Source of the DNA: Spongiibacter sp. IMCC21906
Lineage (GTDB): Bacteria; Pseudomonadota; Gammaproteobacteria; Pseudomonadales; Spongiibacteraceae
Length of the DNA: 64,000 nucleotides
NCBI RefSeq assembly: GCF_001010805.1
Contig: NZ_CP011477.1
Location: 1,689,001 to 1,753,000, forward strand
Direction: 5' to 3'
The notes under the pieces were generated by a model that was given only the letters and a program-made list of their open reading frames with translations, searched no databases and was not told the origin of the DNA. The position numbers and the translations under genes are program-made. Numbering within the stretch: the stretch's first letter is position 1; the number at the start of each line of letters is the position of its first letter. This document shows, in pieces, positions 42,404 to 56,220 of this stretch.

Positions 42404-42513
42404 GATCTTTTCCTAATATTGCGATTCCCTCTATCTAATGTCATTTATGTTTAACTTTTGTGACCTACATTGGACAGTCTCAAGGTGTTAATTGGGAATG
42501 CCCAAGGGTCTCT

Positions 42514-43722
42514 ATGAAAATTATCGATGCAAGAGTGATTGTTAGCTGCCCCGGACGCAACTTTGTCACGCTAAAAATAATCACCGACGAAGGCGTGTAT
42601 GGCATTGGTGATGCCACCCTGAACGGCCGGGAGCTGGCGGTGGTGTCGTATCTTCAAGACCATGTGCTGCCCTGCTTGATAGGTCGCGACCCTCAGCAGA
42701 TAGAAGATATTTGGCAATATCTCTACCGGGGCTGTTACTGGCGGCGCGGTGCGGTAACCATGACCGCCATTGCGGCGGTGGATGTTGCCCTCTGGGATAT
42801 TAAAGCCAAACTGGCCAATATGCCGTTATATCAACTGCTGGGCGGCCGCTCTCGCGAAGGGGTGATGGTTTACGGCCATGCCAATGGTGCCGATATTAAC
42901 GAGACCATTGATGAAGTGGGTCGTTATATCGACATGGGATACAAAGCGGTGCGAGCCCAGTGCGGTATCCCCGGTCTGCCGTCAACCTATGGCGTGTCTG
43001 GTGACAAGATGTATTACGAGCCAGCCAATGCAGACTTGCCGGAAGAGAACGTCTGGTCCACGGAAAAATACCTGCACCATGTTCCCAAACTGTTTGAAGG
43101 CTTGCGGGACAACTACGGTTTTGACGTTCATCTGCTCCACGATTGTCATCATCGCCTATCCCCCATAGAGGCGGGACGCTTGGGTAAAGACCTGGAACCT
43201 TATCGTTTGTTTTGGTTGGAAGACACCGTGCCTGCCGAGCTGCAGGAGCGCTTTCGCCTGATTCGTCAGCACACCACCACGCCGCTGGCGGTGGGGGAAG
43301 TCTTTCATTCCATTTACGACTGCAGCACCTTAATCAGCGAACAGTTGATTGATTATATTCGCGCAACCGTTGTTCATGCCGGGGGCATTAGCCATGTACG
43401 GCGGATTGCGGCGCTGGCTGAAATCTACAATGTTCGCACCGGCTTTCATGGGGCGACCGACTTGTCGCCAGTCACCATGGGTGCCGCGCTGCATTTTGAT
43501 ACCTGGGTGCCCAACTTTGGCATACAGGAATATATGCGCCACACCGACGCCACCGACGAGGTTTTTCCCAGTGATTACACCTTTGAGAATGGTTATTTGA
43601 AGGTGGGGGATACACCGGGACACGGTGTTGATATCGACGAAAATCTTGCAGCGGAATACCCCTATCAACGTGCTTATTTGCCGGTGAACCGTTTACAGGA
43701 CGGCACGCTGTTTAACTGGTGA
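42514..43722 (+). CDS. manD: D-mannonate dehydratase, ManD (enolase superfamily)
   Basis: A 402-residue enolase-superfamily dehydratase, exactly the ManD length. [20 protein letters not shown] is the typical start. Magnesium and catalytic residues lie in [27 protein letters not shown] and [13 protein letters not shown]. The gene replaces the usual uxuA for mannonate to 2-keto-3-deoxygluconate. The ATG at 42514 was chosen over an open frame from 42460, since the family begins at MKI. RspA-type paralogues have low or different activity, but the uronate neighbours support true ManD. Confidence 0.88.
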
Positions 43723-43773
43723 TGTGATGAACGAAGCGCAGCTATTCAGTGTGAATTCTTAAAAAGGCAGCGA

Positions 43774-44763
43774 ATGACCTCACTTCCAAACATCATCGCC
43801 ATGGGCGAAGTCATGCTGGAGTTCTCGCCGCAGTTCTCGCCGCAGAGAGCTGGCTCGGGTGGCTTTGAGCTGGCCTATGCTGGCGATACCTTTAACACCG
43901 CGGTTTATTTAGCGCGGCAGGGCCTTAAGGTCAGCTATCTCACTGAGCTGGGCAGTGACAAGTTCAGCGATCAAATCATCGCGCTGGCTGAGTCAGAATC
44001 TGTGTGCATGAATGGGTGTATCCGCAGTGACGGCGCATTACCGGGACTGTATTTAATTGAAAATAATGCCGAGGGCGAACGGGAGTTTTATTACTGGCGA
44101 CGCCATAGCGCGGCGCGGCAGTTGTTAATGACCCCTGAAAAAGTGCAGCGGATTTGTCGGGCTGTGGGCAAGGCTGATGTGTTTTATCTCTCTGGTATCA
44201 GCATGGCGGTGATGGGGCAGGATTCGGAACAGGGCTTTTGGGCCTTGATTGACAGCGTGCAACGGCAGCAAAAGACGCTGGTATTTGATCCCAATTTTCG
44301 GCCACGGTTGTGGCCAGATTTAAATCTTGCCAGAGACTTTTATCAAAAAATTCTCGGCTACTGTGATGTGGTGTTTCCCACCTTAGATGACGACACCCTG
44401 TTATGGGACCTTAGCGAGCCTGAGACGATTATTGATTTCTATCACTCACTCGGTGTTGCGGAGGTGGTGTTAAAACTCCCCGCCGCCAAGGCAATGGTGA
44501 GTACAGGCCATGAGCAGGTGCTGCGATCCTCAAGGTATCGCGGCGCAGTGGTGGATACCACCGGTGCCGGAGATGCCTTTAATGCCGCGTATCTGCATGC
44601 CCGTTATGCCGGCGCATCATTGGCGGCCTCCTTGGATGCGGGCCATCGTTTGGCGGCAAAGGTGATAGGGGTACGGGGGGCCATTATTTGGCACAACGCT
44701 GAGCCAATGTCTGATTCCTCTATTGTTACTGACGGTCTTCCGCCAGAGGAGCCTTTTTATTAA
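43774..44763 (+). CDS. kdgK: 2-keto-3-deoxygluconate kinase (PfkB family)
   Basis: A 329-residue ribokinase-fold sugar kinase. The N-terminal GEVMLEFSPQ and FELAYAGDTFNTAVYLARQG are typical of KdgK. The catalytic base and anion hole lie in VDTTGAGDAFNAAYL near residue 262. It phosphorylates KDG to KDPG, the step after ManD, which is encoded 51 bp upstream. A short direct repeat near the start duplicates SPQF (EFSPQFSPQRAG). KDPG aldolase is not in the window. Its 3' end overlaps the presumed start of the GH79 gene. Confidence 0.9.
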   Translation: MTSLPNIIAMGEVMLEFSPQFSPQRAGSGGFELAYAGDTFNTAVYLARQGLKVSYLTELGSDKFSDQIIALAESESVCMNGCIRSDGALPGLYLIENNAEGEREFYYWRRHSAARQLLMTPEKVQRICRAVGKADVFYLSGISMAVMGQDSEQGFWALIDSVQRQQKTLVFDPNFRPRLWPDLNLARDFYQKILGYCDVVFPTLDDDTLLWDLSEPETIIDFYHSLGVAEVVLKLPAAKAMVSTGHEQVLRSSRYRGAVVDTTGAGDAFNAAYLHARYAGASLAASLDAGHRLAAKVIGVRGAIIWHNAEPMSDSSIVTDGLPPEEPFY

Positions 44764-46297
44764 GTTTAATGAATTGCTCAATACCTTACTCAGCAGGCTG
44801 GCAAGCAAAGGGCTTCAGCTTTATCGGTCGCTGTTGGCATTTAAAAACAATAAACCCAAGCCCGCTGATACCGCCCGTTTAAGTTTGCTGGGGGCTGAGC
44901 CTGTTGCCGAAATTAATCCACGCTATCTGTCATTTTCGGTAGATATTTCGGTGTTAGCGGGGGGCTTTTGGTGGGAGGGCAGCACCGATAGTCGGCGGGG
45001 TTTAGGAACCTTGCGCATTCCGCCCTTAAAACTGAATTCTGAAAAACTGGATCGCTTAGTTAAGTTATTGGGACCGGCCTATTTGCGCATCGGCGGTTCT
45101 GAAGCGGATAAAATCCATTATTTTGATAACCCCAATGGCGATGCGGATGCGCTGGTATTAACCCGGCAGCAGTGGGATGAACTGCATGCTTTTTTACAGC
45201 GCAATGATTTAAAACTGATTTTTACCTGTAAATATGGGCTGTTTAAACGCGAGCATCATGGCCGCTGGCAAGGCAGCGAATTGTTGAAACTATTGGATTA
45301 CAGCAAGGCGCAGGGCTATCACATCGATGTATTTGAGTTGGGCAACGAGCTTAACGCGTATTGGGCGTTTCATGGGTTGATGTCTCAGCCTCGGGCGATC
45401 AATCTGGCTCGGGATTACAACCAGTTTTACAAAGTGGTGAAGCGGGATTTTCCCAATTCAAAAATTTCCGGGCCGGGCAGTGCTTTTTGGCCCAAGCTGG
45501 GGGAAACCGTCCGCCCCATCAGCAATATTACACCTCGGTTTTTAGCCAATCTTGATTTCAAGCTGGATATTGTGGATTGGCATTACTATCCCTTTCAAAG
45601 TGATCGCAGTCCGGTACGGACCCGCAAGGCGCGCTTGCATCATTTGCTGGACCCTAAATCCTTTGAGTATTTTCGCTTGTATGGCAAACGGCTGAGTGCC
45701 CTGCGGGATCGTTTTCAAGCGCAAGCAGAGGTTTGGACCGGGGAGACAGGCTCGGCTCAATGCGGCGGTCAGCCCGAATTATCGGACCGTTGGGTGTCCA
45801 GTTTTTGGTGGGCCGATCAGCTGGGCATGGGGGCCCGTTTAGGCCAAAAGGTCATGGTCAGACAGTCACTCATTGGCGGTGATTACGGCATGATTGTACG
45901 GCTTACCCTAAAACCCCGGCCAGACTATTGGGTGAGCTGGTTGTGGGGACAGCTGATGGGCACGCAGGTTTATGCCATCGACAGCAGCTCGCCCCATATT
46001 CGCTGTTATCTGCATTCAGCCAAAGAGGGTGAAGGTAAAACCCTGTTACTGATTAATCTTGCTGCCCATGCGGTAGAGCTTGATCTGCCTTCGGTTTTGC
46101 AGGAATCTATTCGTGGCGGCTACGAAATGACAGCAAAAAAACTGGCCAGCCGTCGGGTGAGGCTAAACGGTAAAAAGCTGCGTTTTAAAGGAGGCACGGT
46201 GGAGTTAGCACATTTTGATCCTGCCCCATTTACGGGCACGTTGTCACCTTATAGCTTGAGCTTTTGGCAATGTGATTTAGCTGCAACACATGATTAA
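44759..46297 (+). CDS. Glycoside hydrolase family 79-like (beta-glucuronidase/heparanase type)
   Basis: About 512 residues of a clan-A TIM-barrel glycosidase resembling GH79. The acid/base glutamate is in VFELGNELNAYW (near 197) and the nucleophile in VWTGETGSAQCGG (near 329). WHYYPFQ and SFWWADQLG match the barrel, and a C-terminal beta domain follows. No cleavable signal peptide is obvious, only an amphipathic leader, so the site of action is unclear. No ATG fits. GGAG at 44748 points to ATT at 44759 as a rare start; TTG at 44723 or 44774 are alternatives. Its place after kdgK suggests it releases glucuronate from a glycan or oligosaccharide. Confidence 0.75.
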   Translation: MKFNELLNTLLSRLASKGLQLYRSLLAFKNNKPKPADTARLSLLGAEPVAEINPRYLSFSVDISVLAGGFWWEGSTDSRRGLGTLRIPPLKLNSEKLDRLVKLLGPAYLRIGGSEADKIHYFDNPNGDADALVLTRQQWDELHAFLQRNDLKLIFTCKYGLFKREHHGRWQGSELLKLLDYSKAQGYHIDVFELGNELNAYWAFHGLMSQPRAINLARDYNQFYKVVKRDFPNSKISGPGSAFWPKLGETVRPISNITPRFLANLDFKLDIVDWHYYPFQSDRSPVRTRKARLHHLLDPKSFEYFRLYGKRLSALRDRFQAQAEVWTGETGSAQCGGQPELSDRWVSSFWWADQLGMGARLGQKVMVRQSLIGGDYGMIVRLTLKPRPDYWVSWLWGQLMGTQVYAIDSSSPHIRCYLHSAKEGEGKTLLLINLAAHAVELDLPSVLQESIRGGYEMTAKKLASRRVRLNGKKLRFKGGTVELAHFDPAPFTGTLSPYSLSFWQCDLAATHD

Positions 46298-46726: not shown

Positions 46727-47920
46727 TCAGGTCAGTGACATTAGTGCCGACACTAATAATTCATTATCGTAATAAGGCGCGCTGCGCTTACTGACCAGTC
46801 GGGTATCGATTAAGGTCACGCCTAAAGATTTCAGCACTTCCGCAGAGAGCTTTGAGGGATAGTTGCCATTGCGACTGTCCAGCAACACAAAGTTAAGGAG
46901 TTTTTTGTTGCTGGTGTTGGTATCGCAGTCCATATGCAATTGGGCGAGCAGGCGTTCTACTGAACTGGCCAAATCCATATTGAATTGTTCGGGGTCGCTC
47001 CCTAGGTTGGGAATGTAGACCTTCGGGCAGTCATTGTCGGCGATGGCTCTACCAACGCCTTTTGGCATTAAGTTGACTAATAACGATGAATAAAAGCTGC
47101 CAGGGGGGTAGCAGATTAACTCGGCTGAATCGATCAGCTTGCGGTTTTTCTTTCGTAAGGCGGTGGACGCGGGCGATTTTTTACCTATTTTCTCGGAGAG
47201 AAAAATCTGATCTATGGCTGAGTTCAGCGGGGGCACTTCTTTACCGGTTAACAGGTGCTGGCCAATAAGCTCGCTGCCATCTTCAAGCTCTGCGCCTAAG
47301 TGCAGGTCTTTGTTGACAATGGCACGAACGGTGCCTTGGGCATTCACCAGCTTAGAAAATAAAAAGATGATGGGGTCCAGGTGGCGGTGATTGTTTAAAT
47401 AGCCGCCAGTGAGAATAAGGTTGCCGATGCTGGCGCCACGCAGGTCAAAATGCTTTGGCATGACCGCAAAAAAATAACCCAGCTGATTGCAGATCAACTG
47501 ACGCATGGGGTTCGCTATATCACTGATGAGTGGTGATTTGCCGCTTATTAAGGCTTCAAGCTCTTGCCGCAATAGGATTTGAGAGGCATTTTTTTCAAAG
47601 CGGTGATTAAACAGAGCGATAATTTCGGGGTGACCGAGCACGGTTTCGTCGGCTAGAGCCATAAGGCGACTGCGCAAATCACCGATGGATGGCATATTAA
47701 ATGCTTTGCGTAACTCTGCGGAGCTACCGCCCGAATCAAAGGGCGTGACTAAATGAATCGAATTATGGGTGTAATTCTTTAGTGTTTTACATAAGCCGTT
47801 TAGAGCGGATCCGCCACTGAAAAATAAAATTCTTGGGCCGAGCTCTGGGATTTTACGATAACGACTAATGCGTAAAGGGTCGGGAATATCAACGCTGCGG
47901 CTTACTCTGATGCTACTCAT
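46727..47920 (-). CDS. CofD-like protein of a GAK-type system
   Basis: A 397-residue protein of the CofD/YvcK-like fold. The nucleotide-binding loop is ILFFSGGSALNGLCKTL near residue 30, followed by HLVTPFDSGGSSAELRKAF, both hallmarks of the family. Later, MPKHFDLRGASIGNLILTGG and NLMPKGVGRAIADND agree. CofD transfers a phospholactyl-type group to a deazaflavin, and YvcK is a regulator; the GAK-associated subgroup has no known activity. The ATG at 47920 was preferred to an open frame from 48046 because homologous sequence starts near it. It is divergent from the six-gene GAK-type set. Confidence 0.8.
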   Translation of the reverse strand: MSSIRVSRSVDIPDPLRISRYRKIPELGPRILFFSGGSALNGLCKTLKNYTHNSIHLVTPFDSGGSSAELRKAFNMPSIGDLRSRLMALADETVLGHPEIIALFNHRFEKNASQILLRQELEALISGKSPLISDIANPMRQLICNQLGYFFAVMPKHFDLRGASIGNLILTGGYLNNHRHLDPIIFLFSKLVNAQGTVRAIVNKDLHLGAELEDGSELIGQHLLTGKEVPPLNSAIDQIFLSEKIGKKSPASTALRKKNRKLIDSAELICYPPGSFYSSLLVNLMPKGVGRAIADNDCPKVYIPNLGSDPEQFNMDLASSVERLLAQLHMDCDTNTSNKKLLNFVLLDSRNGNYPSKLSAEVLKSLGVTLIDTRLVSKRSAPYYDNELLVSALMSLT

Positions 47921-48163
47921 AAATACAAATTTATATCTGTTTGATAGTGGTAATGGAGGACTTGTCGTATTTCTGTAACAGACAAGCTGGGTCTGATGCT
48001 TCAGAATGCCCGCTATCCTACGGGTCAATTGTGACGGTTTCGTCAATGGCTAGAGGAATGTCAGTATTCTTTCTGTGCGGATGTAATCTGCTTAATAAGC
48101 CTTATTCTGCAAATAAACTGGTATTTGCATGTATCACTGAGAATGCCTTAACGATGACCAAGC

Positions 48164-49807
48164 ATGAAACTGCCTAAAAATATTCGCGATAATTTGCGTT
48201 TTCTCTGTATTGAGGTGGATTCGCTGCTGGAAAGTCTTGAAGCCTGCTTTCAAGGTGGGGTGGCTATTCAGGGGCGTCGTATTCTCGACCGGGGCGGTTA
48301 TGCCTACAATTTAAAAATCCGCATTCACAACGCCAGCCTGCAGCAACTTTCCCAGCTGAAAAAGGGCGATGCCAGCATTATGAGTTTGCGTGGTGCCGAG
48401 TTTATCGCCACTGATCTTGAGCGCATCGCGGAGTTATGTCGGGAGAGCGTTAAGCAAATCAGCTATTTAGACAACCTTGAACTGATACATGCAGAGGCTT
48501 ATCCCGCTTTGCTGGCATTGATCCGGGAAGGGATTGGCATGATTGGCGCTGCCGCAAGAGATAGCGATAGTCGTCAGGCACTGAAGATAGGCCAGTTGGA
48601 ATCCCAGATAGATCGCGCTTATCACAAGCTATACAAACATTATATTGCCGCCTTAAAAGCCAAGAGCAAGCAGACAGAAAGTCTGGCAACCGCCTTGTTT
48701 ATAGCCCATAACGTTGAACAGATGGGATATGCACTGCGCAACATCAGTGAGACGATTATCTCTGCCAATATTGGTCAGCCCGTTAATTTTGAACGCTACC
48801 ATGCCTTGCAGGAGTCGGTGGAGCATCTTGAGACCGAGGTGCTGCGAGGTCAGTTAAAAGTGGCACCCATTGCCGAAACCCGTTCTGGCAGCGCGATTTC
48901 TGGTGTGCATGCTGGGTCTGGCAAGTCGAGAGAAACGGTTGCCATTTTTAAAGAAGGACAAAAGCGTAAGCTGAAGGAAGAGCGTCAGGGAGTAGAGAGT
49001 TGGCATGAGATCTACCCCGGTTTGGCGCCACGCATTTTAAGTTATAAAAAACGCGGTCAGTCAGCGGCTTTGCTCATTGAGCATTTGCCCGGACTCACCT
49101 TTGAGCAAATTGTGCTTAACGGCAATAAACGTCAGCTTGCCGACTGTCTGGCGCACTTACACGACACCTTGCAGTCGGTATGGCAGGAGACCCGCAACAA
49201 CAAGCCGGTTATGGCGGGGTTTATGGCTCAAACCGCCAAACGACTGCCAGAAATCTATAAAATCCATCCGGAGTTTAATCGCGGAAAAAGCGATATTTGT
49301 GGGCTGAAACCCCCGCCATTTGCTGATTTGCTGAGCAAAGCTGCCAGTTATGAGGCGCAGCTAAAAGCGCCGTTTTCGGTGTATATCCACGGCGATTTTA
49401 ATGTGGATAATATTATTTACGACCCCGCTGAACAGCGAATCAACTTTATTGACCTGCACCGTTCCCGTTATATGGACTATGTGCAGGATGTGTCGGTATT
49501 TATGGTTTCAAACTACCGCTTACAAATTCTTGACCACGAGGTGAGAAAGCGAATTATGGCGGTGGCGAGGGCGTTTTGCGAAGCGGCCCGGCAATTTGCT
49601 GCCAAGCAAGGTGACGACAGTTTTGAATTGCGTTTGGCGTTGGGATTGGCGCGATCGTTTATCACGTCTACCCGGTTTACCCTCGATAAGTCTCAGGCCA
49701 GGCGCATGTATTTGCGATCCTGTTATTTGATTGAACGGGTACTCAGCACGCCAAGCAATAAAGCTTCATCCTTTAAAGTGCCTGTTAAGGAGATATTCAT
49801 TGCCTGA
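48164..49807 (+). CDS. PhoU-like plus aminoglycoside-phosphotransferase-like kinase
   Basis: A 547-residue fusion. Residues 1 to ~215 are all helical and PhoU-like (for example SLRGAEFIATDLERIAELCR and ATALFIAHNVEQMGYALRNI). Residues ~250-520 form an APH/choline-kinase-like domain with RILSYKKRGQSAALLIEHLP and the catalytic loop VYIHGDFNVDNIIYD near 408, then INFIDLHRSRYMDYVQD for the metal aspartate. It probably phosphorylates a small molecule or protein under control of the PhoU-like part. Its end overlaps the ATP-grasp gene by eight bases. It fits the GAK-type gene set by its neighbours. Confidence 0.8.
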   Translation: MKLPKNIRDNLRFLCIEVDSLLESLEACFQGGVAIQGRRILDRGGYAYNLKIRIHNASLQQLSQLKKGDASIMSLRGAEFIATDLERIAELCRESVKQISYLDNLELIHAEAYPALLALIREGIGMIGAAARDSDSRQALKIGQLESQIDRAYHKLYKHYIAALKAKSKQTESLATALFIAHNVEQMGYALRNISETIISANIGQPVNFERYHALQESVEHLETEVLRGQLKVAPIAETRSGSAISGVHAGSGKSRETVAIFKEGQKRKLKEERQGVESWHEIYPGLAPRILSYKKRGQSAALLIEHLPGLTFEQIVLNGNKRQLADCLAHLHDTLQSVWQETRNNKPVMAGFMAQTAKRLPEIYKIHPEFNRGKSDICGLKPPPFADLLSKAASYEAQLKAPFSVYIHGDFNVDNIIYDPAEQRINFIDLHRSRYMDYVQDVSVFMVSNYRLQILDHEVRKRIMAVARAFCEAARQFAAKQGDDSFELRLALGLARSFITSTRFTLDKSQARRMYLRSCYLIERVLSTPSNKASSFKVPVKEIFIA

Positions 49808-50690
49808 GTTAAAAATAGCCGTTGTGGGTATACCGGGAAAATGGTCTACCGAAGTACTGGCGGATGCACTGCAAGCGCGAACGGGGTTTCGGTTGATTGT
49901 GGATATGGCAGAGGCCAGTCTGGATTTAAGCGGGAAGGCATTGATGTATCGCGGCGTTAATTTATGCGAGCTGGATGGCATTGTGGTGAAAAAAATCAGT
50001 GCCCAGTACAGTCCCGATACGTTAAACAGACTTGAAATGCTGCGTTTTGTCGAGGCTTGTGGGGTTAAGGTATTCAGCCCGGCCATGAGTATGCTGGGGC
50101 TGATCAATCGATTGAGTTGCACCGTAACGCTGCGTCAGCATGATATTCCGATGCCGGATACGGTAGTGACAGAAGATATTGATGAGGCGATGGCAACGAT
50201 ACGGGATTTTTCTCAAGCGGTGTGCAAACCGTTGTTTTCCACCAAAGCCCGGGGCATGTGCCTTATCGACGGCAGCCAAACGGAAGACGAGCTGCTGACC
50301 GAGCTAAAGGCCTTTCAGAGCGCAAACCCAGTAATGTATATACAGCGTAAAATTGCCTTGCCGGGACGTGATTTGGGCATGGTGTTTTTGGGCGGCGAAT
50401 ACTTGGGCAGCTATGCGCGAGTAAATCAAAGTGATAGTTGGAATACCACGATCAATAGTGGTGGCCGTTATGAATCGTCTAATCCTCCTGCAGAAACCAT
50501 CGCCATTGCGCAGCGGGCTCAAGCGGCTTTTGATTTGGATTTTACCACGGTTGATGTAGCCGAAACGGAGTCGGGGCCTGTGGTGTTTGAGGTATCGGCC
50601 TTTGGTGGCTTTCGTGGTGCCTTAGAAGGTGCCGGTATTGATGCGGCAGCGCTCTATAGTGATTACGCAATTAAGCGCCTTTTTCGATGA
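49800..50690 (+). CDS. ATP-grasp enzyme of a GAK-type system
   Basis: A 296-residue RimK-like ATP-grasp protein. LKIAVVGIPGKWSTEVLADA begins the N-terminal domain. SQAVCKPLFSTKARGMCLID is the ATP-binding strand pair with a lysine, and VMYIQRKIALPGRDLGMVFL and DFTTVDVAETESGPVVFEVS hold the magnesium-binding residues. Such enzymes ligate a carboxylate to an amine or amino acid. The TTG start at 49800 follows an AAGGAG site. The gene overlaps the PhoU/kinase gene and precedes the HprK-related kinase by 10 bp. The substrates are unknown. Confidence 0.85.
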   Translation: MPELKIAVVGIPGKWSTEVLADALQARTGFRLIVDMAEASLDLSGKALMYRGVNLCELDGIVVKKISAQYSPDTLNRLEMLRFVEACGVKVFSPAMSMLGLINRLSCTVTLRQHDIPMPDTVVTEDIDEAMATIRDFSQAVCKPLFSTKARGMCLIDGSQTEDELLTELKAFQSANPVMYIQRKIALPGRDLGMVFLGGEYLGSYARVNQSDSWNTTINSGGRYESSNPPAETIAIAQRAQAAFDLDFTTVDVAETESGPVVFEVSAFGGFRGALEGAGIDAAALYSDYAIKRLFR

Positions 50691-50700
50691 GTAGTGTTTT

Positions 50701-51828
50701 ATGAGTGTGAATAGCTGCGATATATACCAACAGTTCAGCGATGGGCTTGTGGTGCAAACCCCAGCGCTGAACGTGGAGTGGGCTGGGATTAGAGTCTGTG
50801 TTCGCAGTAACTCCAATGCCTTGCTTGATAATCTGGCGGACTATTTTAGCCACTGCCTGGCTCCTCCTGGGGCGGCCAGCGTAAATGCACCGGGTAAACA
50901 AATAGATGTGATGGCGGTGGAATGCGATGCCCCCAACTTAGCCTTCGATTTTCAGGATTGGCGTCGCGAACCGGGCAAGCAAGGTAAAAAAGACAGTTAT
51001 ATTGAGCTAAGTGATGGAAGGCTACTTCGTAAAGTCCGTACTGGCATGGTGTTTTTGCAGAACGAGAACTACCTGCTGGCTGCAGGGCCTTGTTTAGCCA
51101 ATAGCAATCAAGTTATTAACTTTATCAACTCGCAGTTGATGAATCGTTTTCAACATCAAGGCTATGTGATTTGCCACGCTGCGGCGGCAAAGGTGAATGG
51201 TGTCGGTTTGGCTTTGGCGGGATTTTCGGGCGGCGGCAAGTCCACCTTGATGCTGAAACTACTTGATAGCCCGAACAGTCAGTTTATTAGCAATGATCGC
51301 CTGTTTCTTAAACAACAGGCAGATGGCGTGCACGCATTAGGTATTCCTAAAATGCCACGGGTTAATCCCGGTACCTTGTTGAACAATCCTCGTTTGCGGG
51401 AATTAATGCACGAAAAAGATCGACAGCAATTTGAGGCGTTGGCATTTTCTGAGCTGTGGGACCTTGAGCATAAATATGATGTGCCGGTTGATCGTGTTTA
51501 TGGCGCAGATCGTATTTTGGCCTCGACTGATTTATTAGCGGTAATTATTTTAAACTGGCAGCATGAGAGCCCGCAGCCAACGGCGATCCAATCTGTCGAT
51601 ATCTCATCTCGACAAGAACTATTGGCGGCGATAAAAAAAGCCCCCGGTCCCTTCTATCAAGATGCCCAGGGCGGTTTTTTGCAAGATGCAATTGACGTGA
51701 ATGATGCTCCGTATTTGCGCTTATTAGAAAATACGCAAGTTTGGGAATTGAGTGGAAAAGTCGATATAGAAAAGGGCGTAACGCTTATTCGTGAGCAATT
51801 AGCAGCAGAAGCACTATGCCACGAATAA
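50701..51828 (+). CDS. HprK-related kinase (type B)
   Basis: A 375-residue protein with the C-terminal HPr-kinase-like P-loop domain. Walker A is ALAGFSGGGKSTLML at about 171-185, preceded by YVICHAAAAKVNGVGLALAG. SNDRLFL contributes the capping aspartate. The N-terminal ~150 residues are unrelated to HPr kinase. True HPr kinase phosphorylates Ser46 of HPr, which is not encoded here, so the target is probably different. Members of this HprK-related B family are characteristic of GAK gene sets. Its end overlaps the histidine-phosphatase gene by 13 bases. Confidence 0.85.
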   Translation: MSVNSCDIYQQFSDGLVVQTPALNVEWAGIRVCVRSNSNALLDNLADYFSHCLAPPGAASVNAPGKQIDVMAVECDAPNLAFDFQDWRREPGKQGKKDSYIELSDGRLLRKVRTGMVFLQNENYLLAAGPCLANSNQVINFINSQLMNRFQHQGYVICHAAAAKVNGVGLALAGFSGGGKSTLMLKLLDSPNSQFISNDRLFLKQQADGVHALGIPKMPRVNPGTLLNNPRLRELMHEKDRQQFEALAFSELWDLEHKYDVPVDRVYGADRILASTDLLAVIILNWQHESPQPTAIQSVDISSRQELLAAIKKAPGPFYQDAQGGFLQDAIDVNDAPYLRLLENTQVWELSGKVDIEKGVTLIREQLAAEALCHE

Positions 51829-52517
51829 TTGCCGCTCTGGTTCGTCATGGTGATTATCACCAACGTGAGAATACCCCCAGTGCCCATCAGCCTTATCCGC
51901 TAACGGAAAAAGGGCAGCAACAGGCAAGTGAAGCCGCCAATGAGCTTGTTGCCGTGGCCGCTAAAAACGACTGGAATATCAACAGCAATATTGATAGCTC
52001 GACCCTACTTAGGGCGTGGCAAACAGCTCAGTGCTATCAACGCAGTATTCAACACAATCTGAATAAACACGTTGACGTCACCAGTTTTGACAGCCTGTGT
52101 GAGCGCAGTGTGGGCAGTGCCGCCAATTTAAGTTTGACGGAAATTAACAGCTTGATCGGCGATGACCCGCGAGTGGCAACCCTCCCGGAAAACTGGAAGT
52201 CCGATAGCTATTTTCGTTTGCCGCTGGTGGGGGCGGAATCTTTAATGGCAGCGGGCGAGCGGGTTGCCGAGCATATTCGTAGTAGTGCCACGCAAATTGA
52301 TGACTACAGCAAAGATCAACTTAAGATATTTGTCGGCCACGGCGCGGCATTTCGCCATGCCGCCTATCTGCTGGGTGTGCTGAGTTTTGAAGATATTGCG
52401 AAATACAGTATGCATCACGCCAGGCCTGTTTATATTGAGCTGGTGGCCAGTGGCCAGTGGCGGCATATTGGTGGTGATTGGAAGCGCAGAGATAAGACCA
52501 CGTTGTTACTGGACTAG
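51816..52517 (+). CDS. Histidine phosphatase (phosphoglycerate-mutase-like)
   Basis: A 233-residue member of the histidine-phosphatase superfamily. The RHG motif is in IIAALVRHGDYHQRE at the N-terminus, where the histidine would take the phosphate. PLTEKGQQQASEAA is the usual next block, and the second histidine is in KIFVGHGAAFRHAAYLLG near 172. It could remove a phosphate put on by one of the adjacent kinases. It overlaps the HprK-related gene, so it is part of the same transcript. The following gap to the metallophosphoesterase gene is filled by a MITE. Confidence 0.85.
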   Translation: MPRIIAALVRHGDYHQRENTPSAHQPYPLTEKGQQQASEAANELVAVAAKNDWNINSNIDSSTLLRAWQTAQCYQRSIQHNLNKHVDVTSFDSLCERSVGSAANLSLTEINSLIGDDPRVATLPENWKSDSYFRLPLVGAESLMAAGERVAEHIRSSATQIDDYSKDQLKIFVGHGAAFRHAAYLLGVLSFEDIAKYSMHHARPVYIELVASGQWRHIGGDWKRRDKTTLLLD

Positions 52518-52528
52518 CGCTTAATTTA

Positions 52529-52719
52529 GGGCCTGTTAACACTAATTGGATTGTCTCTATTGAGGCTAAAAAAGCGCCAATCTCGGCGCGAGGAGAGCAG
52601 TTTGGTTATTCCAAATAAACGACGAGCAACACAGAGTGGCGCTTTTTTAGCCTCAACCCGCAGGGCTGGGGGCAAAAATGACCGCCAGCAGTAATAATCC
52701 AATTAGTGTTAACAGGCCC
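52529..52719. mobile_element. MITE-like element, copy 2 (191 bp)
   Basis: It shares the perfect 24-bp terminal repeats of copy 1 (52529-52552 and 52696-52719) and the inner perfect ~20-bp inverted repeat beginning TTGAGGCTAAAAAAGCGCCA, but lacks the extra ~75 bp. TTA flanks both ends (52526-52528 and 52720-52722), a probable 3-bp target duplication. It sits between the histidine-phosphatase and metallophosphoesterase genes of the GAK-type operon. Confidence 0.88.
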
Positions 52720-52769
52720 TTATGATTCATTGAAATGTCACAGCGTTGCAATATAACGGTAGGCAAACG

Positions 52770-54143
52770 ATGAGGACTGCGAGCAGCATGGCCATTTCCG
52801 CCACACCAGAATTTTCTCAAACTACTGAGATCAACGATGCCCTAACGGGACGTTTGGGATTGGCCCAAGAGCCTTGGGAGCTTGGCAGCGGCAGTGATCC
52901 GGTGAAATTAATAAAGCGCCGCAGCCTGTTGCGTGAAACCCTGGAAAAATCAGTTGCAGAAGGTTCTTGGCGCTGGCCGAAAAAACCGATTATTTTTATT
53001 TCTGATGCCCACGCCGATGCCGAGGCGTTTCGGGAGTCTCTTCTTGCTTCCGGCGGTGTTCGCCTGCATCGCCGCCATGGTTTTGTACTGACCGCATTGG
53101 GGCGCAAAGCCAAATTTATTATTGGCGGTGATTGTCTGGACAAGGGACCAAGCAATTTGGCCCTGTTGCGGAGTGTAAAATCACTGATGGACTGCGGAGC
53201 AAAGGTCAAGCTACTGGCTGGCAATCACGATGTTCGCTTGCTTGTGGGCTTAAGGGCAATGAGTCTGCCGAAACATTGCGATACCGAGCATATGTTTGTG
53301 CGTATGTCGCCCAAAGTCGTGCCGCTACTCCTCGAAATCTATCAGGAATATCTGCAGGGTAAAAAACAGGCCCTACGAAATATCCCTTCAAGTGAAGAGT
53401 GTCGGCAGCGCTTGTTTCCGTCGGCTAATTGGGCGGAAGAGTTTGCCGCGTCTGCGCAAGGCCGTATGCCCGAAGAGACGCTGCAGCGCGAATTGGCGCG
53501 CATGCGTAAAAAGATAGCGGGCTGTGAGCGAGCGTTTGCCGACGCGGGCATGGGGATGCGAGAGCTGTACGCTACGGCTAAGCGTTGTCAGCAGCTGTTT
53601 TTAAAACCGGGTGGTGAATTCTTCTGGTTTTTTAAAAAAATGGAACTGAGCTATCGCAGTGGCTCATTTTTATTTATTCACGCAGGGGTGGACGATCGGG
53701 TAATTGAGCTGATCCAATCTGATGGCGTAAAAAAGCTCAACAAACTGTATCGCAAGCAGATCAAACACAATTTATTCGATTTTTATTATGGCGCAGTAGC
53801 CAATACCATGCGTACCAAATATCGCGATGTGGATATGCCTCTCTCGACTGAATCGGTAAGCTGTGCGTATCGTGAAGGGATTCATGTGGTTGTGCATGGC
53901 CACCGCAATCGTTTAGATGGCCAGCGTTTGATGCTTAGGCATGGCATGTTACATGTAGAAGGGGATATCACCATGGACCGTAATTCCCGAATTAAAGAAG
54001 GTCTGACGGGGATTGGAGTTGGCGCCACCATCATTGATCCCCAGGGGCGGGTGATTGGAATAAGCAATGATTATCCAGCCGTAAAGGTGTTTTCTCCATC
54101 GCGCTATCTGCAGTTAATACCCGAAATCGGGATTGAGGAATAA
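52770..54143 (+). CDS. Calcineurin-like metallophosphoesterase
   Basis: A 457-residue protein with a metallophosphoesterase core split by an insert. PIIFISDAHADAEAF gives the first metal aspartate and histidine, FIIGGDCLDKGPSN and LLAGNHDVRLLVG the GD and GNHD motifs, FLFIHAGVDDRVIEL and VVVHGHRNRLDGQ the later histidines. The insert (about 175-285) is helical. It resembles Ser/Thr-phosphatase-like or diadenosine-phosphatase-like enzymes. The ATG at 52770 was taken; ATG at 52788 is also possible. It is separated from the earlier GAK-type genes only by the MITE, and the amphi-Trp gene follows after seven bases. Confidence 0.85.
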   Translation: MRTASSMAISATPEFSQTTEINDALTGRLGLAQEPWELGSGSDPVKLIKRRSLLRETLEKSVAEGSWRWPKKPIIFISDAHADAEAFRESLLASGGVRLHRRHGFVLTALGRKAKFIIGGDCLDKGPSNLALLRSVKSLMDCGAKVKLLAGNHDVRLLVGLRAMSLPKHCDTEHMFVRMSPKVVPLLLEIYQEYLQGKKQALRNIPSSEECRQRLFPSANWAEEFAASAQGRMPEETLQRELARMRKKIAGCERAFADAGMGMRELYATAKRCQQLFLKPGGEFFWFFKKMELSYRSGSFLFIHAGVDDRVIELIQSDGVKKLNKLYRKQIKHNLFDFYYGAVANTMRTKYRDVDMPLSTESVSCAYREGIHVVVHGHRNRLDGQRLMLRHGMLHVEGDITMDRNSRIKEGLTGIGVGATIIDPQGRVIGISNDYPAVKVFSPSRYLQLIPEIGIEE

Positions 54144-54150
54144 GGATATT

Positions 54151-54423
54151 ATGCATCAGGCTAAAGCCAGTTTTCGTCATGAGTCTTTGCAAGACAGCAA
54201 GTCGATTCAAGAATTTTTAAAAGCGATTAGCAAGGGGCTGGGCAAGGGCAAACTGCAGTTTAGTGACGAGGAGGGGAAAATAGTGATGTTGCCGGAGGGA
54301 CTGTTAAATTTAAAGCTCACCGCCACTCAGGATGAGTCCCGTCATCGCATTGATTTGCGGATTAGCTGGCAGAGCGACGATGAGCATGTTGAGCCAAAGA
54401 CACTGCAAGTCAGCAGTGATTAA
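54151..54423 (+). CDS. Amphi-Trp domain protein
   Basis: A 90-residue protein that is essentially one amphi-Trp domain. It has FRHESLQDSKSIQEFLKAIS, then GLGKGKLQFSDEEGKIVMLP and LLNLKLTATQDESRHRIDLR, ending with the tryptophan in ISWQSDDE. The domain is often found beside GAK genes and as an add-on elsewhere, and no activity is known. A small partner or substrate-carrier role is conceivable. The ATG at 54151 has an AAGGA site. It is the last gene of the operon and faces a cytochrome-oxidase-like operon on the other strand. Confidence 0.85.
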   Translation: MHQAKASFRHESLQDSKSIQEFLKAISKGLGKGKLQFSDEEGKIVMLPEGLLNLKLTATQDESRHRIDLRISWQSDDEHVEPKTLQVSSD

Positions 54424-54450: not shown

Positions 54451-54750
54451 TCAAGCTCCAGTGCAAATCACAATTAACACGCTGCACATGACAACTGCCC
54501 AAAGATCAAAGCCGTGGCGCAGCCAGCGCGGCGCGCAGCGTAACTCCATAAACTGAAAACCGACTACCCACACTTTAACAAAGGCGGTAATAATCACCCC
54601 GGCCGTGGCCAATGGCAGGCCACCGCTGACGTTGTGACCGGTATTGCCCAGCCACCACCCAATCAATGTGGCAATAATCAGTATCAACCAGGCGATATGA
54701 AGGGCTTTGTGTTGCTTGAAAAGTTGTTGGCTAAAAGAAAGAATCGACAT
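54451..54750 (-). CDS. Cytochrome c oxidase subunit IV-like (NorF-like) membrane protein
   Basis: A 99-residue protein with three predicted membrane helices. ALHIAWLILIIATLIGWWL, then LATAGVIITAFVKVWVVGFQFMELRCAPRW (split: AGVIITAFVKVWVVG, FQFMELRCAPRW) and the last helix match the prokaryotic COX4/NorF pattern. The ATG at 54750 was chosen over one 12 codons upstream that overlaps the preceding gene. It is 13 bp downstream of a COX3-like gene on the same strand. Confidence 0.75.
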   Translation of the reverse strand: MSILSFSQQLFKQHKALHIAWLILIIATLIGWWLGNTGHNVSGGLPLATAGVIITAFVKVWVVGFQFMELRCAPRWLRHGFDLWAVVMCSVLIVICTGA

Positions 54751-54763
54751 TTTTATTAGCTCA

Positions 54764-55381
54764 TTAAAGCAGGTAGAGGAGGGCAAATAGGGCGATCCAT
54801 AGCAGGTCGACTAAATGCCAGAACAGCGCGCCACTCTCTATAGTGCGCACATCTTTTGTGGTGAGGGGCTTGCGTTTACTGGCGCCACGAATAACAAACA
54901 GTACCGCTATACCGACCAGAACATGCAATAAATGGATTCCGGTAAACATAAAAAAATACATGTAAAAGTCATTCGTCATGGGGGATAGCCCCGCACTGAT
55001 TTTGCCGCCCCATTCCATGCTTTTATTGGCAATAAAGCCGAAGCCGCAGAGAATTGCCAGTGAAAAATAACGGCTTAATTGGGGGCTGCCGCCGGTTTTG
55101 GCTTTTTCTACGCCCAGTGCGACAAACCATGAGCCGGTTAACAGTAATAGGGTGTTGGTAATGCCGACCCATAAATCGAGTTGCAGGCGGGATTGGGCGA
55201 ATATCTCGGTTTGTTCCCGTTGACCTAAAGCAATCAAAATAAAGAAAACGGCGAAAATCATCAGGTCCCCAGCAATAAAAAACCAAATGCCCAGCTCGCC
55301 GGGAATCCGAGGTTTTGTATGGGGGGTGGCTTCTGGGATGTTTGCGTCGTGCTTATTGAATTGGGTGGAGTCGTTCATCAA
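54764..55381 (-). CDS. Cytochrome c oxidase subunit III-like (NorE-like) protein
   Basis: A 205-residue, five-helix membrane protein of the COX3 family. PGELGIWFFIAGDLMIFAVF starts the first helix, and FTGIHLLHVLVGIAVLF and ALFWHLVDLLWIALFALLYL are the conserved histidine-containing helices. The size is like NorE and less like full COX3. No subunit I or II gene is in the window, so it is an orphan accessory protein, perhaps for a nitric-oxide-reductase-like or other oxidase encoded elsewhere. Confidence 0.85.
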   Translation of the reverse strand: MMNDSTQFNKHDANIPEATPHTKPRIPGELGIWFFIAGDLMIFAVFFILIALGQREQTEIFAQSRLQLDLWVGITNTLLLLTGSWFVALGVEKAKTGGSPQLSRYFSLAILCGFGFIANKSMEWGGKISAGLSPMTNDFYMYFFMFTGIHLLHVLVGIAVLFVIRGASKRKPLTTKDVRTIESGALFWHLVDLLWIALFALLYLL

Positions 55382-55509
55382 GTACCCTTGGTTATGTTAT
55401 CTGATCGTATAACAGCTGAGCAGCCAAACCCCTTTGAGTTTGGCATGACTTGAGTCAACACAGGTTTGCAGGGGGCTATCCCCTCACAAACCTATATCAA
55501 GCCTGCTAT

Positions 55510-56220
55510 TTAGTCTGCTTTTTTAGCGGCCTTCAGCATTTCAACAGACATAATCAGAATCCAAAGAAAGAAAGCCACAAAAGGAATCCACAGGGCAACA
55601 ATGCCGTGCCAAGAGAAGGGGCCATCTTTGAAAAACAACACCATTTGGCCGGGGGCAAACAATAAGACGGCCCAAAGGTTGATGTAGGCAACCCAACGAG
55701 GGAAGGGTTCTTTGCCTTCTTCAGAAAACAGAATAGACATTGCAATAATCGCACACCAACCACCAAATACGGGTACCGAAAACACGGCTAGAAAGTAGGC
55801 GAAGTCCGCAAACATCTGTACTGTGCTGGGATGGTATTCAGTGGGGCGGAAGACCATTAGCGCCCATGTAAACGCCACCAGCAAGGCTACCATGGTGCCG
55901 CAGGCGGTAAACATCAATTGCACATAAGAGAACACCGGACGTGACTCTACCCGGCGGGTCTGGGCAGCGATGCCTGCACCAAAGGGGCCGAACAATGCAA
56001 AGGAAATCATTAGAAAGACCGAACCTATTCGAATAGAGAACAGGTGCTCGGTGACCTTGCTGACAAACATGTCAGGACTGTCGTTGGCGTGGAGTAGTGG
56101 CGGGAGCATTCCCCCGAGTAACATGCCGCCAATAATAAAAAAGAAAATTGCCATAAATCCCGACCAGGCACAAAAGGTCATTGATTTACGAAACAGGATA
56201 TCGTTATTCGTTGCTTCCAC
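55510..56220 (-). CDS. Multi-helix membrane protein, unknown function
   Basis: A 236-residue protein with about six predicted membrane helices (for example MAIFFFIIGGMLLGGMLPPL, SVFLMISFALFGPFGAGIA and ALWIPFVAFFLWILIMSVEM). Several charged loops separate them, and it has a lysine-rich end. It lies upstream of the COX3/COX4-like pair on the same strand, with a 128-bp gap, so it is probably part of the same unit. No family is recognised. A role in membrane electron transfer or sterol/lipid handling is only a guess. Confidence 0.6.
   Translation of the reverse strand: MEATNNDILFRKSMTFCAWSGFMAIFFFIIGGMLLGGMLPPLLHANDSPDMFVSKVTEHLFSIRIGSVFLMISFALFGPFGAGIAAQTRRVESRPVFSYVQLMFTACGTMVALLVAFTWALMVFRPTEYHPSTVQMFADFAYFLAVFSVPVFGGWCAIIAMSILFSEEGKEPFPRWVAYINLWAVLLFAPGQMVLFFKDGPFSWHGIVALWIPFVAFFLWILIMSVEMLKAAKKAD

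Follow-up and report, generated by a model that had tools for sequence, protein, structure and literature searches.

Gene neighbours and upstream sites suggest a role of the GAK gene set in phosphate limitation

The window analyzed here, a stretch of 64,000 nucleotides from Spongiibacter sp. IMCC21906 (contig NZ_CP011477.1, positions 1,689,001 to 1,753,000), carries at 46727..54423 a typical copy of the known GAK gene set of NCBIfam, a set without explained function. Gene neighbours and control sites of related loci suggest, as far as sequence comparison can tell, that GAK helps cells to manage phosphate and polyphosphate when inorganic phosphate (Pi) is scarce, and we lean towards reading the cluster as a Pi-limitation module. 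The PhoU half of one of its kinases, accessory genes for SixA, CHAD, ParA and NUDIX proteins, the latter resembling diphosphoinositol polyphosphate phosphohydrolases (DIPP), and an enrichment of Pho-box-like sites jointly point to phosphate limitation and polyphosphate. The gene set itself is already known as GAK; new is the functional lead to Pi and polyphosphate.

A preliminary description of this DNA had listed seven genes of named families and likened them to GAK. A check of the open reading frames (ORFs) together with family searches found all seven where they had been placed, and all four GAK models exceed their cut-offs in adjacent genes. These encode the CofD-like protein (46727..47920, minus strand; TIGR04357, 544 bits with a cut-off of 340; PF01933, E 4e-35), the ATP-grasp enzyme, a RimK/LysX/MptN-like ligase (49800..50690; TIGR04356, 453 bits, cut-off 300), the HprK-related kinase B (HprK-B; 50701..51828; TIGR04355, 340 bits, cut-off 200) and the amphi-Trp protein (54151..54423; TIGR04354, 64 bits, cut-off 31). 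The other three are a PhoU-APH fusion kinase (48164..49807; PF01895, E 5e-10; PF01636, E 5e-11), a branch 1 histidine phosphatase (51816..52517; PF00300, E 2e-15) and a calcineurin-type, distantly ApaH-like metallophosphoesterase (52746..54143; PF00149, E 1e-5). Apart from the CofD-like gene all are located on the plus strand.

Scanning of genome contigs with the ATP-grasp protein of the window gave 14 loci. The family model was positive in 14 genomes of the phylum (398 screened), in 14 of the class (369) and in 10 of the order (115), the window genome being included each time. Conservation was assessed in 47 loci gathered via the ATP-grasp gene; many of the Rhodobacterales loci among them are closely related to each other. 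The APH gene is present in 45 of them, HprK-B in 43, amphi-Trp in 42, the metallophosphoesterase in 40, the histidine phosphatase in 39 and the CofD-like gene in 17; some of the missing genes correspond to contig ends. All six core genes occur in 37 loci, and the order APH, ATP-grasp, HprK-B, histidine phosphatase, metallophosphoesterase, amphi-Trp is kept in 32 of the 47, several of the others stopping at contig edges or lacking genes. This conserved order shows that the grouping is more than chance. The preliminary description had tied its proposal of a system to related families and a conserved neighbourhood, and both were found, the latter far beyond the window genome. Within the order HprK-B was detected in 9 of 10 ATP-grasp-positive versus 0 of 105 negative genomes, and amphi-Trp in 10 of 10 versus 7 of 105. 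The CofD-like gene is optional, since only 13 of 31 GAK-positive genomes carry it at E 1e-20 or better (12 above the cut-off). In one locus (L066:1-6009) APH and ATP-grasp are each matched twice, at separate places, and a single long frame matches HprK-B as well as SixA-NUDIX, possibly owing to frameshifts or fusion.

Several accessory genes connect GAK to phosphate metabolism. A SixA-NUDIX fusion of 320 residues is found in 18 of the 47 loci; its N-terminal half is closest to SixA (E 1e-18), its C-terminal half to the human DIPP enzymes (E 2e-15). A separate NUDIX gene is also present in 18 of 47 loci, and the one examined (L070) is only generally MutT-like. CHAD proteins are encoded near GAK in six loci (L014, L041, L043, L049, L065 and L070), in five of them together with a ParA-like ATPase. 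CHAD domains bind polyphosphate (PMC6537752). A ParA-type ATPase adjoining a polyphosphate binder suggests granule positioning. The 31 GAK-positive genomes contain 23 CHAD genes, of which 5 are no more than 10 kb away from the ATP-grasp gene, with 0.14 expected (P 2.7e-7 ignoring relatedness); the true association is weaker than this value because the five genomes represent three families. Further cases are L014, genome G768, where the genes are split over contigs, and G637, where a second HprK-B gene lies beside CHAD. This second gene (L081:1721-2785) is separate from the full cluster of the same genome in L062, and its neighbours encode a histidine phosphatase and NUDIX-like, CorC-like, CHAD and ParA proteins. 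In G826 a CHAD and ParA-like pair (L080:9360-11653) stands without adjoining GAK genes; the pair is thus a unit of its own.

The clearest case is a 51-kb contig of G836, where GAK is located amid phosphate and polyphosphate genes. On one side are PPK2, PPX, an ABC permease and PhoU; the middle holds ParA, CHAD, CorC-like, CofD-like, NUDIX and the GAK genes with a further histidine phosphatase, DUF47 and Pit; PPK1, a PstS-like protein, PhoU and PhoR follow on the other side. G768 resembles this arrangement, spread over several contigs, and single neighbours occur elsewhere (PPK2 in L060, Ppx in L052). Three proteins of the phosphate islands share similar N-termini (L076:421-1611, L077:5731-6921, L079:2052-3242); the one in L079 resembles 2-phosphoglycerate kinase (285 bits, under the model cut-off) and the one in L076 has an ATP-cone. 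In print, PPX, NUDIX and histidine phosphatases are given as the commonest genes after ppk (PMC8003754).

As the phosphate neighbours suggested Pho control, we scored one Pho-box consensus in regions of 320 bases preceding the first gene and regarded scores of 20 or more as strong. The 44 regions comprise the 47 loci minus four without usable upstream stretch, plus the window; 213 intergenic upstream regions served as background. Strong Pho-box-like sites are present in 8 of 44 regions versus 2 of 210 in the background (Fisher 1.6e-5), the raw background count being 5 of 213 before three sites seen a second time from a divergent neighbouring gene were dropped. When only the first member of each lineage is considered, 6 of 32 regions carry a strong site (P 7.9e-5, or 9e-4 with the undropped background). 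Rank tests of the scores gave 1.2e-5 for loci and 3.6e-5 for lineages, and none of 200 scrambled motifs, for which 150 of the 213 background regions were taken, matched the real mean difference. Examples of strong sites are GTGTCATAGAACTGTCAT in L037 and CTGTCACATTGCTGTCAT in L041. In the window the best site is TTGTCGTATTTCTGTAAC (47962..47979, plus strand), located between the divergent CofD-like and PhoU-APH genes, and a 25-base block around it is identical at 22 of 25 positions in the congener locus L051. The case for a Pho box is good for several lineages and for the window itself only suggestive.

Catalytic motifs are kept in several of the proteins. In the fusion kinase, profile positions 6-223 match the PhoU structure 4q25 (E 3e-11) and positions 239-444 match APH(3') (E 1e-7). 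The PhoU half is present in every copy of the APH gene, and the catalytic residues H409, D411, N416 and D430 are conserved in 24 of 24 rows. With the ATP-grasp profile 12 solved sequences reach E 0.01 or better, the best being of the RimK and LysX/ArgX types, and the MptN model matches the window enzyme at 149 bits. Its metal motif is E-x-S (E264-V-S266), that of RimK being E-x-N. For HprK-B, sequence comparison with the PDB returned P-loop and repeat matches only; a predicted model later settled the fold as HprK/PEPCK, with resemblance to PEPCK over the whole length. The P-loop is intact and preceded by a histidine, and N198-D199, invariant in 36 of 36 rows, stands where HprK has two aspartates. 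The histidine phosphatase has no PDB match at E 0.01; its residues R10, H11, R66, E96 and H175 are invariant (31 rows). So are the metal motifs of the metallophosphoesterase (D87-H89, G128-D129, G159-N160-H161-D162, H312 and G385-H386; 21 rows), which matches ApaH structures at E 2e-4. The closest solved structures to the CofD-like protein are YvcK/UPF0052-type proteins, and the amphi-Trp protein is predicted to adopt an alpha-beta4 structure (pLDDT 85).

Taking together the observed families, conserved order, PhoU fusion, neighbours, Pho-box enrichment and kept catalytic motifs, we infer PhoB control, a sensing role and a direction of the chemistry as follows. At low Pi a PhoB-type regulator probably turns the cluster on in several lineages, and within the fusion kinase the phosphate status would be passed from the PhoU half to the kinase half. 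Both this kinase and the one of the PEPCK/HprK fold would add phosphate to a small molecule or carrier, and the RimK-type ATP-grasp enzyme would couple an amino acid or peptide to the same compound. Phosphates would be stripped by the histidine phosphatase and the metallophosphoesterase, in some lineages also by SixA-NUDIX and NUDIX proteins. Two kinases and a ligase would make the product, and between two and four enzymes of the phosphatase or NUDIX kind would break it down. The preliminary description had already suggested, in general terms, phosphorylation of a small molecule or carrier, which may hold. The product may tune the use of Pi or polyphosphate, and in loci with CHAD and ParA-like genes the module may work at polyphosphate granules.

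A number of results weigh against a Pi-limitation module. The window genome contains no CHAD and no PPK2, and its single PPK1 lies far from the cluster; many loci, including those on plasmids, show no nearby phosphate gene. Proximity of the polyphosphate kinases is weak and involves few families: 3 of 30 PPK1 genes are located within 25 kb (P 0.015) and none within 10 kb, and 3 of 47 PPK2 genes within 25 kb (P 0.04), after 11 of 58 rows had been left out as short fragments or as the second domain of a two-domain gene. At the level of whole genomes CHAD failed as a predictor of GAK, being present in 3 of 10 GAK-positive versus 37 of 105 other genomes of the order. As to the upstream sites, 36 of 44 regions are without a strong Pho-like site, among them the phosphate-island locus L070, and the window site reaches a score of only 19.4, which is equalled by 3.8% of the 213 background regions. 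The bare repeat TGTCA-N6-TGTCA was rejected as a signal in the window, where it has 50 matches with 45.6 expected.

Loci without a phosphate gene nearby would be expected if GAK were a stress or defence module without special tie to phosphate, its phosphate neighbours being due to chance or restricted to certain lineages, and the patchy spread, which includes 5 of 72,556 plasmid records with the cluster ATP-grasp gene, all from Rhodobacterales, fits as well. A plasmid of the culturable Roseobacter Tritonibacter mobilis F1926 is among the carriers of the cluster. We regard a module of this kind as unlikely in view of the PhoU fusion, the CHAD proximity and the Pho-box enrichment. None of the seven proteins matches a PADLOC model at E 1e-5, for which reason a known anti-phage defence system was rejected, and viral contigs and phage records gave no confirmed GAK match, which likewise led us to reject spread by phages or viruses.

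Two further explanations concern the chemistry rather than the setting. It is unlikely, in our estimate, that the amphi-Trp protein is a small acceptor which HprK-B phosphorylates, the ATP-grasp enzyme extends and the phosphatases reset, its state regulating the cell in the manner of HPr in sugar uptake. The constant company of amphi-Trp and GAK in the order and the HprK/PEPCK fold with intact P-loop are in line with such a scheme. So is an N-terminal motif, F-x-H-E/D-S-L-Q-D, in GAK amphi-Trp proteins (H and S each in 31 of 34 rows), which is missing from all seven free-standing copies of GAK-negative genomes of the order (L083-L089). The conserved serine was dropped as obligatory phospho-acceptor, since 3 of 34 rows have alanine in its place, and an HPr-like fold of the predicted model is unsupported because Foldseek found nothing better than E 1.1 and VIA no Z above 2.5. 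A tail pathway similar to that of cofactor F420, in which the CofD-like protein would transfer a phospho-acid of three carbons and amino acids would be added by the ATP-grasp enzyme as they are by CofF, appears very improbable: the CofD-like gene, found in fewer than half of the GAK-positive genomes, can be no obligatory step, and its product is closest to YvcK-type structures. The co-occurrence of CofD-like and CofF/MptN/RimK-like enzymes, the resemblance of HprK-B to PEPCK and the 2-phosphoglycerate-kinase-like genes in the phosphate islands speak for it.

With regard to the layout of the cluster, three starts were placed by comparison with relatives: that of the CofD-like gene is probably 47920 (the ORF is open to 48046), that of the ATP-grasp gene probably near 49800 and that of amphi-Trp probably 54151 (the ORF opens at 54133). 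The preliminary description had noted overlapping ends. After these corrections this holds for two junctions, APH/ATP-grasp with 8 bases and HprK-B/histidine phosphatase with 13; the others do not overlap, and 228 bases separate the ORFs of the histidine phosphatase and the metallophosphoesterase. Just past amphi-Trp, on the opposite strand (54451-56220), lie genes for membrane proteins which by eye resemble relatives of cytochrome oxidase subunits III/IV. Before the cluster (42460-46297) ORFs similar by eye to a sugar-acid dehydratase, a sugar kinase and a glycosidase look unrelated to GAK.

Our search of the open-licence literature for GAK names and the combination of families returned no functional paper, in agreement with the earlier statement that the function is undescribed; additional searches gave CHAD/polyphosphate papers or unrelated ones only. 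GAK has so far been a conserved set in the NCBI family library to which no function is assigned. The prediction of control by Pi limitation and of an effect on Pi or polyphosphate is specific and cheap, and allows GAK to be tested in marine bacteria that grow in culture. Should it prove true, bacterial phosphate physiology would gain a new branch in which a kinase is coupled directly to a PhoU domain.

A bolder version would see in GAK a bacterial phosphate-signalling circuit analogous to the eukaryotic inositol pyrophosphate system, suggested by the DIPP-like NUDIX, the histidine phosphatase, the ATP-grasp enzyme and PhoU. Upon a change in Pi the PhoU-coupled kinase and the ATP-grasp enzyme would produce a messenger that is highly phosphorylated or pyrophosphorylated. 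Its destruction would fall to histidine phosphatases and DIPP-like NUDIX enzymes, and through the CHAD/ParA granule proteins it would control polyphosphate. We consider this quite improbable. The kinase of PPIP5K has an ATP-grasp fold, and the likeness of GAK to PPIP5K/DIPP extends to the histidine phosphatase, the DIPP-like NUDIX and the phosphate setting. The GAK ATP-grasp enzyme is instead closest to RimK/LysX ligases, a kinship that weakens the analogy; PPIP5K is absent among the 12 matches listed at E 0.01 or better, and the GAK histidine phosphatase belongs to branch 1. PPIP5K is described as combining kinase and phosphatase (PMC11836120).

Among other known systems, the NCBIfam set matches the window in that its adjacent genes pass all four models; the model names cover families only and include neither PhoU-APH and the two phosphatases nor the NUDIX genes and a link to phosphate. 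Carboxylate-amine ligases of the RimK type share with GAK the ATP-grasp profile, closest to RimK/LysX/MptN, and differ in the metal motif. From the F420 tail pathway GAK differs in that a CofD-type transferase is not always present. HPr kinase/phosphorylase and PEPCK have in common with HprK-B the fold, the P-loop and the histidine before it, whereas N198-D199 sets HprK-B apart and no HPr-like partner was found. The ppk-pptA(CHAD)-NUDIX operon of Streptomyces, for which the available part of the source mentions no ATP-grasp, HprK-B, PhoU-kinase fusion or amphi-Trp gene, is controlled by PhoR/PhoP (PMC8003754) and resembles some GAK loci in uniting CHAD and NUDIX with polyphosphate genes under Pho control, which for GAK is probable in several lineages.

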